A DNA stretch of 64,000 bases from Prochlorococcus sp. AG-355-J09. Lineage in GTDB: Bacteria; Cyanobacteriota; Cyanobacteriia; PCC-6307; Cyanobiaceae. Where the stretch lies: NCBI GenBank assembly GCA_003278735.1, contig QCDO01000005.1, positions 1 through 64,000 on the forward strand, given 5' to 3'. The notes under the pieces are model-generated. The model was not told where the DNA came from, ran no database searches, and worked only from the letters and a program-made list of their open reading frames with translations. The translations under genes and the position numbers were made by a program. Of the stretch, positions 19,252 through 50,771 are shown piece by piece; position 1 is the first letter of the stretch; the number at the start of each line of letters is the position of its first letter.

Positions 19252-19361
19252 AGCTAAGGTTAAAGTTCTTAATTTGATAATAATTTATTTTAATTAAATT
19301 TGCGGTTGTAGCATAATGAAGTTTTAAATTAGATTATATTCAAGGTGATATTTTCGTACAT

Positions 19362-19568
19362 ATGTTAGATGCAAATACTAAAAAAGCATGTAAAGATGAT
19401 CCCTCAATAAGAGATATTAAAATTAGAAATATAGAACATGCTATTGAACAAGCAGAATTGATGATAAAAGAATCAAAAATGAGCCAAGAAGAATTAATCT
19501 TTTTAAAAAGAAAAATATCGGACTCAAGACAAGATTTAGAGATACTTTATTTGATGAAAATTCAATGA
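19362..19568 (+). CDS. Small helical protein, 68 aa
   Basis: 68 residues with continuous helix-forming pattern from residue 19 (DIKIRNIEHAIEQAELMIKE and on to the C-terminus), probably a coiled-coil hairpin. It has an N-terminal Cys and no membrane segment. It starts with ATG about 110 bases from the divergent hairpin on the other strand. Function unknown. Confidence 0.6.
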   Translation: MLDANTKKACKDDPSIRDIKIRNIEHAIEQAELMIKESKMSQEELIFLKRKISDSRQDLEILYLMKIQ

Positions 19569-21778: not shown

Positions 21779-21873
21779 AAAAAAAAGACCCCTCATAGAG
21801 AGATCTTTTTAAAATTGATTTATATCAAGTGTTTCCTTGTTTCCACTGAAATAAATCAATTCCTCCTACACAC
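21779..21873 (-). ncRNA. Yfr2-family small RNA
   Basis: On the minus strand a perfect 10-bp stem (21851-21860 with 21814-21823) encloses a loop with the doubled motif GGAAACA-A-GGAAACA (21844-21830), the signature I recall for the Yfr2 family of cyanobacterial sRNAs. An intrinsic terminator follows: an 11-bp stem including G-U pairs (21808-21798 with 21794-21784), a TAT loop and eight T. A weak -10-like GATATT lies near 21887-21882, so the 5' end is estimated at about 21873. RNA length is about 95 nt. Confidence 0.85.
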
Positions 21874-21947
21874 AAACCTAATATCACACTTAATTTCAAA
21901 ATATGTAATGCCTAATAGACCTCTATCTTAACTGTCACATCGCAAAA

Positions 21948-22056
21948 AATACAAAAAGTACTCAAACATTGCGGTCGAGTACTTTTGAAGTTATCAGAAA
22001 AAAGTGTGTGAGGAGTTTCTGATTTATTTAATTTACTCCGTAGGTAATTTAAAAGG
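21948..22056 (-). ncRNA. Small RNA displaying the Yfr1 core motif in a hairpin loop
   Basis: A minus-strand hairpin, TCAGAAA (22022-22016) paired with TTTCTGA (22000-21994), has CTCCTCACACACTTT as its loop. With the last base of the left arm this gives ACTCCTCACACAC, the core sequence of Yfr1. It is followed by a 10-bp terminator stem (21986-21977 with 21963-21954) and T-rich DNA. A good -10 (TATACT, 22066-22061) places the 5' end near 22056. Unlike Yfr1 it has no GGGG/CCCC 5' hairpin and is about twice as long. The ends are estimates. Confidence 0.7.
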
Positions 22057-22139
22057 CTACAGTATAAATTACTAATTATTTAAATCTTTCAGAAAAATTG
22101 GGCGTTGATGAAAAAAATAATCAAAAACATAAAAAATTC

Positions 22140-22982: not shown

Positions 22983-23768
22983 TTATTTACGAAGTTTAGG
23001 AATCAAAAGAGATGCGACACAAATAACACTAATTGCAGGTCCAGGCGACAAATTAAAGACTATAGAGAGAATAAAGCCCAGAAGTGAGATACATAATCCA
23101 AAAAATGAAGATCTCATCATTGCAATTCTTAAACTATGAGCCTTATTTAGCCCTAACAGTGTTGGGGTAGAAAGAAGAGCAATAACAAGAATTACTCCCA
23201 CTGCTGACATTGAACTAACAATTACTAATGCCGTTGTAAAACTCAAAGCAAGATTTAATAAAGCAACTTTTATACCACTCGCGGATGCTCCTTCTGGATC
23301 TATTCCCACATAAACAACCTTTTCATATCCAAAAGTCATTAAAAGTATAAATACTAAAAAAGCAATTATTGTTCTAAGTAAATCTCCAAAATTTGCTGTC
23401 AATAAATCGCCAAATAATACTGCCTCCAAATCGATCCTTATTCCAAGTAAAGGGATTATAAGGACTCCAAACCCAAGCATTCCGGCTAATATTGTGTTCA
23501 TTATTGCTTCATAGTTTTCACTCTTTTTATTAGTTAAACTTTCCGCAATTACAGAACCTAAAAGACCACTGATAATCCCACCAATTGAAGGATGAATTCC
23601 AAGCGCTAAGGCTAAAGCAAGTCCTGGCAAAACGCAGTGAGAGATTAAATTTACTTGAAGTAATCTCCTATGGGTTATTAATACAGTTCCCATAGCTGGA
23701 CATAGAATTCCTGAAAAAATAGTTATTATTAAAGGAACAAGCCACCAACTGCTATTAATAAAAGACAT
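22983..23768 (-). CDS. znuB: Zinc ABC transporter permease ZnuB
   Basis: 261 residues with about eight membrane helices, of the ABC-3 family that moves zinc or manganese. Typical segments are GTVLITHRRLLQVNLISHCV, LPGLALALALGIHPSIGG, and the late SAVGVILVIALLSTPTLLG. Zinc as substrate is inferred from the adjacent zur, znuC and the His-rich znuA. It is on the same strand as znuC but separated from it by zur on the opposite strand. It starts 17 bases from the zur start. I see no Zur box of its own. Confidence 0.9.
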   Translation of the reverse strand: MSFINSSWWLVPLIITIFSGILCPAMGTVLITHRRLLQVNLISHCVLPGLALALALGIHPSIGGIISGLLGSVIAESLTNKKSENYEAIMNTILAGMLGFGVLIIPLLGIRIDLEAVLFGDLLTANFGDLLRTIIAFLVFILLMTFGYEKVVYVGIDPEGASASGIKVALLNLALSFTTALVIVSSMSAVGVILVIALLSTPTLLGLNKAHSLRIAMMRSSFFGLCISLLGFILSIVFNLSPGPAISVICVASLLIPKLRK

Positions 23769-23785
23769 TAATCTATTGATTCGGT

Positions 23786-24220
23786 ATGATCAAAAATACG
23801 GGACAAAAAAAGATTTCTGAAAAAATGGTAACTAAGCCTGACATTACCAAAAGACAAGAACAACTTCTTGAAGAACTTAATAAATGTGAAGATGAACTGA
23901 GCGGTCAAGAGTTGCATAGACAATTGATTGAAAGCGGAAAAGCTATGGGACTGACAACTGTATACAGGAATCTTCAAGTTCTTATAAAGCATGGTTTAAT
24001 ACGTTCTAGACATCTCCCAACAGGAGAGGTCCTTTACACTCCCGTAGATAGAGACATTCATCATTTGACATGTGTTCAATGTGGTGAGACCTCAAAAATG
24101 GAAGGGTGCCCTGTAAAAGATATTCATACACCCAAAACAAATCCAAAGAAATTCCAATTGTTGTTTCATACCCTGGAGTATTTCGGACTTTGCCAGAACT
24201 GCTATCAAGCACAAAGTTAA
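23786..24220 (+). CDS. zur: Fur-family zinc uptake regulator Zur
   Basis: 144 residues of the Fur family: a winged-helix domain (KRQEQLLEELNKCEDELSGQ, then GLTTVYRNLQVLIKHGLIRS) and a dimer/metal domain. The metal ligands HHLTCVQCGET and the late GLCQNCYQ form the two CxxC pairs of the structural zinc site. Zur rather than Fur is inferred because the gene is embedded in the znu genes and Zur-type boxes flank znuA. An ATG 13 codons downstream is an alternative start. The gene lies antisense between znuC (14 bases away) and znuB (17 bases away). Confidence 0.9.
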   Translation: MIKNTGQKKISEKMVTKPDITKRQEQLLEELNKCEDELSGQELHRQLIESGKAMGLTTVYRNLQVLIKHGLIRSRHLPTGEVLYTPVDRDIHHLTCVQCGETSKMEGCPVKDIHTPKTNPKKFQLLFHTLEYFGLCQNCYQAQS

Positions 24221-24234
24221 AACTAAATATTTTT

Positions 24235-25005
24235 TTAATCACAACAATTATTATCCTCAATAGAGCTGATATTTATATCCTCTAATTTATCTTTTATGGA
24301 ATCAGGTCTTCCACAGGCCAATACAGCTTTATCCAAAACAATAACTTGATCATAACTATTTAACGAGGTACCCCAATCATGACTGCTCACCATTAAAGAA
24401 AGACCAGCATCAGCAAGTTGACGAACAATTTTTAGAAAATCCTCCTTTGCAGGTGGATCTAAAGCTGCACAAGGTTCATCAAGAAGGAAAATTTTTGCTG
24501 GAGACATTAATGTTTTGGCTAATAGAGCTCTTTGTTGTTGTCCACCAGATAAAGAATCAAGCCTTCTTTTAGCAATATTTGCAATGCCGACTCTTTGCAT
24601 TGTGGCCTCCAATTCACAGCATTTATTAATCCATGCATTAGGGTTGGCAAGAAGAGCTTTTATTTGAAAAGGACTACTACTTTTTGATTTTGAGTATTTT
24701 ATTTGTCCTAATGAAACTAGTTTTTCTACAGTTATTGGAAATTTCCAATTCATAGAGCTTCTTTGTGGCATGAGTGCCACCTGAGATCTTTGTCTAATTA
24801 ACTTCTCCCCGTCAATTGTTATCTGGCCATTATCAGGAATACATTGTCCCTGCAATATTCTTAAAAGAGTAGATTTGCCAGCTCCGTTTGGTCCTACTAG
24901 AGCAGTTAATGTACCTGGTTCAACTGTTATGGAAACTTTACTTATAGCCGGGCTTACATTTTTTGCATACGAATAAGATAAATTTTCAGCTACTAGTAGT
25001 GACAT
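24235..25005 (-). CDS. znuC: Zinc ABC transporter ATP-binding protein ZnuC
   Basis: 256 residues. Walker A GPNGAGKST (38-46), signature LSGGQQQR, Walker B IFLLDEP, and the H-loop SSHDWGTS. It powers metal import with ZnuB. The C-terminus ends in DNNCCD, possibly metal-sensing, which is unusual. It is divergent from znuA across a 129-base gap that holds a Zur-type palindrome. Its transcript has no room to end before running antisense through zur, so it may continue into znuB. Confidence 0.93.
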   Translation of the reverse strand: MSLLVAENLSYSYAKNVSPAISKVSITVEPGTLTALVGPNGAGKSTLLRILQGQCIPDNGQITIDGEKLIRQRSQVALMPQRSSMNWKFPITVEKLVSLGQIKYSKSKSSSPFQIKALLANPNAWINKCCELEATMQRVGIANIAKRRLDSLSGGQQQRALLAKTLMSPAKIFLLDEPCAALDPPAKEDFLKIVRQLADAGLSLMVSSHDWGTSLNSYDQVIVLDKAVLACGRPDSIKDKLEDINISSIEDNNCCD

Positions 25006-25096
25006 TAATACTTGAACTTACAACCCCATAATATTTTAATTATGGAAAATAATTTACTTTAAAAACATTTTATACCTAAACTTGCATATAAAAATG

Positions 25097-49053: not shown

Positions 49054-49377
49054 TTATAAATGCTTAGTTAAAGTGCTTGAAAGAGTCGCTTTTGGAACAG
49101 CACCAACAACAGTATCAACCTTTTGACCTCCTTTAAAGATCATTAATGTAGGAATACTTCTAATTCCGTATTGGCTGGCTACATTTGGATTCTCATCTGT
49201 ATTTAATTTAAAAACTTTAATTTTCCCTTCAAAGTCTTTTGAGATTTCTTCTACAACTGGAGCGACCATCCTACATGGACCGCACCATGGTGCCCAAAAA
49301 TCAACCAATACTGGTAGATCACTTTGCAGTACATCTTTGTCAAATGAAGAATCAGTTACGGCTGGAGCTGATGACAT
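49054..49377 (-). CDS. trxA: Thioredoxin
   Basis: 107 residues of the classic thioredoxin fold: [20 protein letters not shown] with active Cys32 and Cys35, the cis-Pro segment [20 protein letters not shown], and a 107-residue total. It reduces disulfides in cytosolic enzymes. The yfr1 RNA gene lies upstream on the same strand, between it and guaB. Confidence 0.97.
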
Positions 49378-49468: not shown

Positions 49469-49523
49469 AAAAAAGCCCGATTAATCGGGCGATTTAGTGT
49501 GTGAGGAGTATGGGGTTTCCCCC
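49469..49523 (-). ncRNA. yfr1: Yfr1 small regulatory RNA
   Basis: Minus-strand RNA of about 55 nt: a 5' hairpin GGGG-GAAA-CCCC, the unpaired core ACTCCTCACACAC, and a 3' hairpin GCCCGATTAATCGGGC followed by six T. All parts match Yfr1, and the position between guaB and trxA matches Prochlorococcus MED4 as I recall it. In MED4 Yfr1 represses outer-membrane porin mRNAs by base pairing through the core sequence; the targets here are not shown by the sequence. The region around it has no protein gene. Confidence 0.95.
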
Positions 49524-49607
49524 ATTATTTCATAATAACTCCTAATCAGAAAATTTTTCAATTTAATACTTAATTCACTAAGGTTTTAAAATTTTGCTCT
49601 AAATGAA

Positions 49608-50771
49608 CTACTTACCCATCCCAAGCTGCTGAGCTTTTTGATAAACCTTACCCTCTGTAAGAAGCGATGGTGCAATAACTATTTCTACTTCTTGCATTTC
49701 TTTAATATTTTTTGCACCAAGAGTACTCATTGAGGTTCTAATGGCTCCTAATAAGTTATGTGTCCCATCATCAAGTAAAGCAGGACCTTTAATTATTCTT
49801 TCTAAGGATCCTGTAGAACCAACTTCGATTCTTGTGCCCCTTGGCAATACTGGACTTGGAGTAGCCATACCCCAGTGAAATCCTTTACCTGGAGCGTTTG
49901 TGGATTTGGCTATTGGGGATCCAATCATTACAGCATCTGCCCCACATGCTAAACATTTACAGATATCTCCACCCGTTACAATTCCTCCATCACCAATAAT
50001 AGGTATATAACGACCACTTTCTCTAAAGTAATCATTTCTTGCCGCACTACAATCGGCAATTGCAGTTGCTTGAGGGATTCCAATTCCCAATACTCCTCTT
50101 GATGTACAAGCCGCTCCAGGTCCTATCCCAACCATTAATCCTGCAACTCCAGCGTCCATGAGAAGTTTTGCAACTTCGTAAGTAACACAATTTCCTGCTA
50201 CAACTGGAACATTCATAGATTGGCAAAGATCTTTAATATTTAAGGTTTTCTTACCTTCAATACCAAAATGTTCAGTTGAAACAACAGTTCCTTGAAGAAA
50301 AAATAAATCTATTTTGGAATTATTAAGTGTTTCTTTAAACTTAATTGCAGCTTGAGGAGTCCCACTAAAAGCAGCGATACCTCCTCCTTCTTTGACCTCA
50401 TTTATTCTTTGTAAAATCAATCCGTCCTTGACGGGTTCACTGTATATATTCTGCATTAACGGAACGAAATCATTCTTCCCGACTGATGCTATTTGGTTCA
50501 ATATTTCATCAGGATTTTCATATCTTGTTTGTATGCCCTCCATATTAATAACCCCAATAGAACCTAATTTTGTGAGTTCTACAGCCGTATTGACATCGAC
50601 AACACTGTCCATGGCACTAGCTACGATAGGAACTTCTCTTTTGATATCACCTATTGACCAAGAAGGATCAGTCAAATCGTAATCAAGTGTTTTATTACCA
50701 GGGACTAAAGCTATTTCATCAATGCCATAAGCTCTTCTGACTTTTTTATTTAAACCAAGTTCAAAATTCAC
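49608..50771 (-). CDS. guaB: GuaB3-type IMP dehydrogenase
   Basis: 387 residues, shorter than classic GuaB because the CBS (Bateman) regulatory domain is absent. The TIM barrel shows AYGIDEIALVPGNKTLDYDL, SAMDSVVDVNTAVELTKLG, the catalytic Cys loop GIGPGAACTSRGVLGIGIPQ and DGGIVTGGDICKCLACGADA. This short form is the GuaB3 type of cyanobacteria and actinobacteria, some of which make XMP from IMP. It lies divergent from gyrA, 180 bases away. Confidence 0.93.
   Translation of the reverse strand: MNFELGLNKKVRRAYGIDEIALVPGNKTLDYDLTDPSWSIGDIKREVPIVASAMDSVVDVNTAVELTKLGSIGVINMEGIQTRYENPDEILNQIASVGKNDFVPLMQNIYSEPVKDGLILQRINEVKEGGGIAAFSGTPQAAIKFKETLNNSKIDLFFLQGTVVSTEHFGIEGKKTLNIKDLCQSMNVPVVAGNCVTYEVAKLLMDAGVAGLMVGIGPGAACTSRGVLGIGIPQATAIADCSAARNDYFRESGRYIPIIGDGGIVTGGDICKCLACGADAVMIGSPIAKSTNAPGKGFHWGMATPSPVLPRGTRIEVGSTGSLERIIKGPALLDDGTHNLLGAIRTSMSTLGAKNIKEMQEVEIVIAPSLLTEGKVYQKAQQLGMGK

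Follow-up and report, generated by a model that had tools for sequence, protein, structure and literature searches.

Why do two small RNAs with complementary motifs lie in tandem on one strand of a Prochlorococcus genome, and do they act on each other? The window, by which we mean the whole 64,000-nucleotide stretch of Prochlorococcus sp. AG-355-J09 that was analysed, had been read earlier from its letters alone. That sequence-only reading noticed CTCCTCACACAC (from 22015) and TGTGTGTAGGAG (at 21874-21863) on the minus strand, and both motifs are there. It also proposed that the two RNA classes could sponge or titrate each other, and this is the model published for Yfr1/Yfr10-type RNAs and the Yfr2-type 5' end in MED4 (PMC2518516 and PMC6778093). 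The regulatory pair is already known, and the locus is unremarkable but for a single base in the middle of the match; our work adds a further Prochlorococcus genome to those with this published circuit of sRNAs, which is linked to the metabolism of carbon and nitrogen, and predicts where the Yfr2-type RNA of the host starts.

We consider it highly probable (roughly 0.88) that the pair in the window is the tandem of Yfr18 and Yfr5 found in the MED4-type genus of Prochlorococcus, one of the Yfr10-Yfr2 kind, and that the 5' end of the Yfr2-type RNA docks the Yfr1/Yfr10 motif as a sponge and gains protection from RNase E. The single-stranded first 11 nucleotides of the Yfr2-type RNA (GUGUGUAGGAG) would be the docking site for CUCCUCACAC, which the Yfr10-type RNA would present in a loop and Yfr1 between two stems. 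When abundant, the Yfr2-type RNA would occupy CUCCUCACAC and keep Yfr1 and Yfr10 off mRNA leaders, and the binding would in return shield the Yfr2-type RNA from RNase E. The published tests used MED4 Yfr2, Yfr1 and Yfr10, neither the host organism nor the Yfr18/Yfr5 pair; our computations cover the presence of the genes, their synteny, the predicted start, the predicted accessibility and the conservation, and we infer the same circuit for the host and for this Yfr18-Yfr5-type copy. Adjacency would presumably help the two RNAs meet.

The sRNA genes and the predicted 5' end

The upstream gene is a Yfr10-family sRNA (21942..22023, minus strand; Rfam RF02362, 59.5 bits, gathering cut-off 43). It comprises the motif hairpin, a second stem in the minimum free energy (MFE) fold and a T-rich stretch; the terminator scan did not list this second stem. 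By sequence and MFE fold the Yfr1-type motif CUCCUCACACAC (22004..22015, minus strand) lies in the hairpin loop; CUCCUCACAC is thereby presented unpaired, in a loop topping a stem, as in the Yfr10 family (RF02362, which includes Yfr18). We recognized by eye, in conserved alignment columns, a -10-like TATACT (22061..22066, minus strand), from which a start of the RNA near 22054-22056 would follow; a sigma-70 consensus scan listed no promoter at this position.

The downstream gene matches the Yfr2-family model Cyano-1 over its full length (RF01701; 21808-21875, minus strand; 80.5 bits, cut-off 41), so that both sRNA genes lie on the minus strand, as the sequence-only reading had them. From its 5' end by homology to the terminator, whose stem was placed by the terminator scan at 21810-21782, the transcript is predicted to span 21779..21873 on the minus strand. 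The predicted length of 95 nucleotides compares with about 89 to 95 nucleotides in vivo for the family. Sequence, fold and terminator scan reveal a 5' hairpin whose loop carries a GGAAACA repeat, an unpaired 5' end and a terminator, which are features of Yfr2-type RNAs (PMC1242208, PMC2662882). As described for high-light strains (PMC6778093), the Yfr10-type gene is found upstream of the Yfr2 homologue. The canonical Yfr1 gene lies farther away (49472-49525, minus strand; 58 bits with the Rfam model, cut-off 38), between a trxA-like ORF (49054-49377) and a guaB-like ORF (49608-50771), both named by eye from their translations, and so in the guaB-trxA interval expected of Yfr1. The host genome (1.58 Mb, 94% complete) contains at least one Cyano-1 match among the 150 of 232 first-look candidates that were scored, and at least one Yfr10 match among 150 of 747.

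Where does the Yfr2-type RNA start? RACE mapping had given the 5' ends of MED4 yfr2, yfr3, yfr4 and yfr5, which are shown in print with -10 elements (PMC1242208), and on the genome GTGTGTAGGAG begins, at its first G, exactly at each of the four published starts. For MIT 9313 yfr2 the published 5' end, 1667390, also falls on the first G of GTGAGGAG, as read in a genome (G334) that we equate with MIT 9313 solely because of this coordinate. Because the MED4 RNAs start with this G, we place the +1 of the window RNA by homology at 21873, and the conserved alignment block begins at this very G. A -10-like GATATT (21880..21885, minus strand), preceded by TGT in the layout of an extended -10 element, was found by eye and is spaced for this +1. 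The layout lies in conserved columns and also precedes MED4 yfr2 and yfr5 and, less clearly, yfr3 and yfr4; a strict consensus promoter scan listed nothing at GATATT.

The pairing site should hence be +1 to +11 of the Yfr2-type RNA (21873-21863). By homology to the MED4 starts, 21863 would lie inside the transcript, as the proposed pairing demands. U21874 would lie outside it, which bears on the earlier count of 11 base pairs around a bulged U: the complementarity stands, but the count needs U21874, and this register keeps 10 pairs. The published register, with a bulged C on the other strand, has 11.

Orthology with MED4 and published precedent

Open reading frames of at least 60 amino acids that start between 10 and 34 kb of the window were compared with four MED4 loci. 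Both flanks match MED4 around yfr18-yfr5 (locus L226), for example with 92% identity for 22986-23789 and 79% for 24238-25017, and L223 and L225 each drew a single weak match. The upstream sRNA aligned with a score of 41 to MED4 yfr18, 26 to yfr10 and 22 to yfr12; on these scores and on synteny we rejected MED4 Yfr10 as its orthologue. The Yfr2-type RNA scored 48.0 with MED4 yfr2, 47.0 with yfr4 and 43.5 with both yfr5 and yfr3. Because it is nearer to yfr2 and yfr4 than to yfr5, the orthology rests on synteny and the upstream sRNA, and by synteny we take the window pair as the putative orthologue of MED4 yfr18-yfr5. The genome used as MED4 (G033) was recognized as such because its Yfr10 match fell exactly on the published coordinates (346661..346738).

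The window shares with MED4 Yfr18-Yfr5 (PMC2518516, PMC1242208, PMC2190773) the sRNA families, their order and strand, the flanking ORFs and the 11-nucleotide site, whereas the stems and the spacer have drifted and the Yfr10-type gene differs upstream of the motif hairpin. MED4 Yfr10-Yfr2 (PMC6778093) has the same architecture and pairing, and its RNAs are those tested experimentally; however, it is another locus without synteny to the window. At 654301-654562 of MED4 (L225), the published span of Yfr15 lies antisense to the 5' part of Yfr3 and covers the pairing site of the latter. Near the sRNA pair of the window, Pfam identified an ABC-3 permease, a FUR-family regulator and an ABC ATPase (22983-25005), in what looks like a metal-uptake cluster that is syntenic in MED4.

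The tandem arrangement and the pairing both have precedents in print. Voss et al. in 2007 located two copies of the Yfr1 motif, one that precedes the mapped Yfr2 5' end by 160-150 nucleotides and a second 128-138 nucleotides upstream of Yfr5 (PMC2190773). Steglich et al. in 2008 found Yfr10, Yfr12 and Yfr18 adjoining Yfr2, Yfr4 and Yfr5 and proposed that 5'-aCUCCUcACACAC-3' pairs with 5'-GUGUGUAGGAG-3' (PMC2518516), and the unpaired 5' end of Yfr2-type RNAs was described as conserved (PMC2662882). In the work of Lambrecht et al. in 2019, Yfr1 and Yfr10 were enriched in a pull-down with MED4 Yfr2, Yfr2 restored GFP in an E. coli reporter that Yfr1 had repressed 4.7-fold, and either Yfr1 or Yfr10 blocked the cleavage of Yfr2 by RNase E (PMC6778093). 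The sizes given for MED4 Yfr18, 29 and 76 nucleotides, add up to its span of 105 nucleotides (PMC2518516). We set aside the idea that both products come from one cut inside the motif; the sizes are suggestive only, and we saw no mapped cut.

In Escherichia coli, GlmY acts by capturing a protein and is not known to act by pairing to GlmZ, in which it differs from the window pair. The likeness of GlmY-GlmZ, a pair named in PMC2518516, to the one described here is that one sRNA controls the other.

Predicted pairing and its conservation

How specific is the complementarity? In the 1.58-Mb genome, CTCCTCACAC occurs at two sites, which are the Yfr10-type gene and Yfr1. GTGTGNAGGAG occurs once, at 21863-21873, as does its backwards control, so the motif alone is not improbable. 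We scanned both strands of the window for duplex energy, skipping stretches without GAG, AGG and GUGUG, and obtained -16.9 kcal/mol for the Yfr2-type site. Of the sites that scored better, two are simply the motif's own antisense; a further three, at +7104, +15053 and +62713, are not self matches and are at least as strong. The first of these three is antisense to an ORF of a mechanically made list and the other two are inside such ORFs; we set them aside as targets of the loop. The energy of the duplex does not by itself make the site stand out; its position and its conservation lift it above chance.

In the MFE folds both pairing sites are predicted to be single stranded. Over the 67 of 101 distinct related hairpins that have a Yfr2 neighbour of the GTGTG-N-AGGAG kind, 99% of the positions of the Yfr1-type motif were predicted to be unpaired. 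Cofolding of the Yfr2-type RNA with the Yfr10-type RNA gave a gain of -10.4 kcal/mol via the site at 21863..21873 (minus strand), in a model without pseudoknots, in which the stem of the Yfr10-type RNA must open. The canonical Yfr1, which had been named as a further partner for the same site, can indeed pair there and gave a gain of -16.1 kcal/mol. From these two gains, Yfr1 may be a better partner than the Yfr10-type RNA.

Both motifs at fixed spacing (110 to 140 nucleotides) were found in 174 of the 266 genomes of the genus and in 73 of the 87 of good quality, with no match of the control seen in the 266 genome rows. A Cyano-1 match was missing from 36 of the 266 genomes and a Yfr10 match from 47; 84 of the 87 good-quality genomes had each. 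We aligned 143 distinct tandems: the spacer drifts, and conservation is seen in the 5' motif of Yfr2, in the -10 region that belongs to it and in the stem of the hairpin. The columns of CTCCTCA and GGAAACAAGG are conserved by construction, having been used to choose the sequences, and the alignment includes sister-lineage tandems and 30 loci that were fetched with the 5' motif itself.

The earlier reading expected the complementarity to persist in related genomes or to change in a compensated manner. This is borne out in part: a strict GTGTG-N-AGGAG site is present in most of the genomes searched (203 of 266), but some copies are degraded and no compensatory double change between the motifs was found. 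The CUCCUCACAC side hardly varies, so compensatory change could not be demonstrated. In motif variants such as CACACGC and CATACAC, the replacement base can, by eye, still form a wobble pair.

Could the two motifs have separate tasks, so that their complementarity is a by-product? CUCCU would then act as an anti-Shine-Dalgarno sequence on mRNAs, and AGGAG as a Shine-Dalgarno mimic, in connection with RNase E or as a GGA site for an RsmA-like protein. The shared core is exactly CUCCU/AGGAG, the equally strong coding or antisense sites of the window would fit this explanation, and a likeness to the GGA/ANGGA motifs bound by RsmA has been noted for the parts of Yfr2-type RNAs that are unpaired (PMC2662882). 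However, the complementarity runs past AGGAG through GUGUG, which none of these roles needs, at least one strict copy of the whole site is kept in the 203 genomes mentioned above, and the MED4 pull-down and reporter data show an interaction (PMC6778093). We therefore regard separate tasks as improbable. Even less probable is a pairing mainly in cis, within a read-through precursor that holds both RNAs and whose processing the pairing would guide: a 270-nucleotide precursor of Yfr10 and Yfr2 in MED4 (Table 1 of PMC2518516) and the tandem order and spacing in 174 of the 266 genomes speak for it, but the same table, in the part available, gives no precursor for Yfr18-Yfr5, the RACE-mapped ends of MED4 Yfr2 to Yfr5 come with -10 elements of their own (PMC1242208), and 28 of the 42 distinct A-type Yfr2 sequences (those with an A between GUGUG and AGGAG) keep the site with no Yfr1 motif within about 300 nucleotides upstream. 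It follows from these A-type sequences that adjacency is not required and that the docking of the Yfr1/Yfr10 motif by the Yfr2-type 5' end is best seen as an interaction in trans.

A variable base in the duplex

All four bases, U, A, C and G, are seen in the genus at the position between GUGUG and AGGAG. Ahead of the core, GTGTG-V-AGGAG occurred 96 times in 93 of the 266 genomes (by eye 87 A, 8 C and 1 G); the U type was counted in the tandem only, with the 174 genomes given above. The 203 genomes with a strict site have at least one of these two forms, and 64 have both. No unbulged site, GTGAGGAG, was found in the 266 genomes. An 'always bulged' rule for the genus was nevertheless withdrawn: at least four of its Yfr2-type loci (L005, L006, L027 and L028) have degraded 5' pairing sites, and L116, which is named Prochlorococcus and may not belong to the GTDB genus of the window, has a perfect 10-base site.

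Against the Yfr1 motif, the median predicted energies were -16.9 kcal/mol for the U type (n = 109 distinct sequences), -18.0 for the A type (n = 42), -15.8 for the C type (n = 6) and -16.4 for the unbulged form (n = 55 distinct), with -20.8 for the single G; these values leave out 16 distinct sequences with neither a bulged nor an unbulged form, among them the four degraded loci of the genus, L176, which is truncated by the end of the locus, and L211, which is viral and has no match in Rfam. A hypothetical perfect site is predicted to reach about -20.5. In the sister lineages, where many copies lack the extra base, the unbulged site is shorter and its predicted energy is similar.

On which strand is the bulge? 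A single bulging C is mentioned in PMC2518516. Because the base on the Yfr2 side is free to vary, a bulge on that side is favoured over the bulged C of 2008. This applies at least to the types with A, C or G, whereas the U type fits both registers equally. We hypothesize, tentatively and with more doubt than belief, that selection keeps the duplex of the intact copies in this genus imperfect with one free base (U, A, C or G). Its strength may be set to leave the sponge reversible, or to let the duplex shield Yfr2 from RNase E and yet escape nucleases that attack double strands. The degraded copies lower the odds of a bulge held by selection, since the site is not kept everywhere in the genus. 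Moreover, the counts are of sequences and genomes and not of independent events, and inheritance alone is an alternative to selection.

We found no account of the variation of the bulge base in print, in a search that most subscription journals lay outside, which gives this absence little weight. In the available text of PMC2662882 and PMC2190773 the passages on bulges concern helices inside Yfr2 or Yfr1, and the word 'bulge' does not occur in the main text of PMC6778093 as far as it was accessible. The genus-wide comparison, with its bulge of variable base, is what our work adds, and it is directly testable with short RNA variants.

In the wider family, the unbulged form was present in 133 of 400 sampled genomes, none of them among the sampled members of the genus; the shorter core pattern of this search admits chance matches, and the backwards control matched in roughly 18 of these 400 as judged by eye. 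Phage-borne copies were considered and rejected: the Yfr2 core occurs in two viral contigs and the Yfr10-type 5' arm with the motif in seven, and none of the nine loci reaches any Rfam gathering score. One genome (G148) has two inverted look-alike tandems on contig 15 (5821-5974 on the minus strand and 19304-19457 on the plus strand), from a duplication or an effect of assembly. Finally, the Yfr2 core sequence lies, perhaps through contamination or chance, in a metagenome-assembled genome labelled Rhodobiaceae (L102, 903-920, contig PAAM01000015.1), less than 100 bases from the end of the contig.
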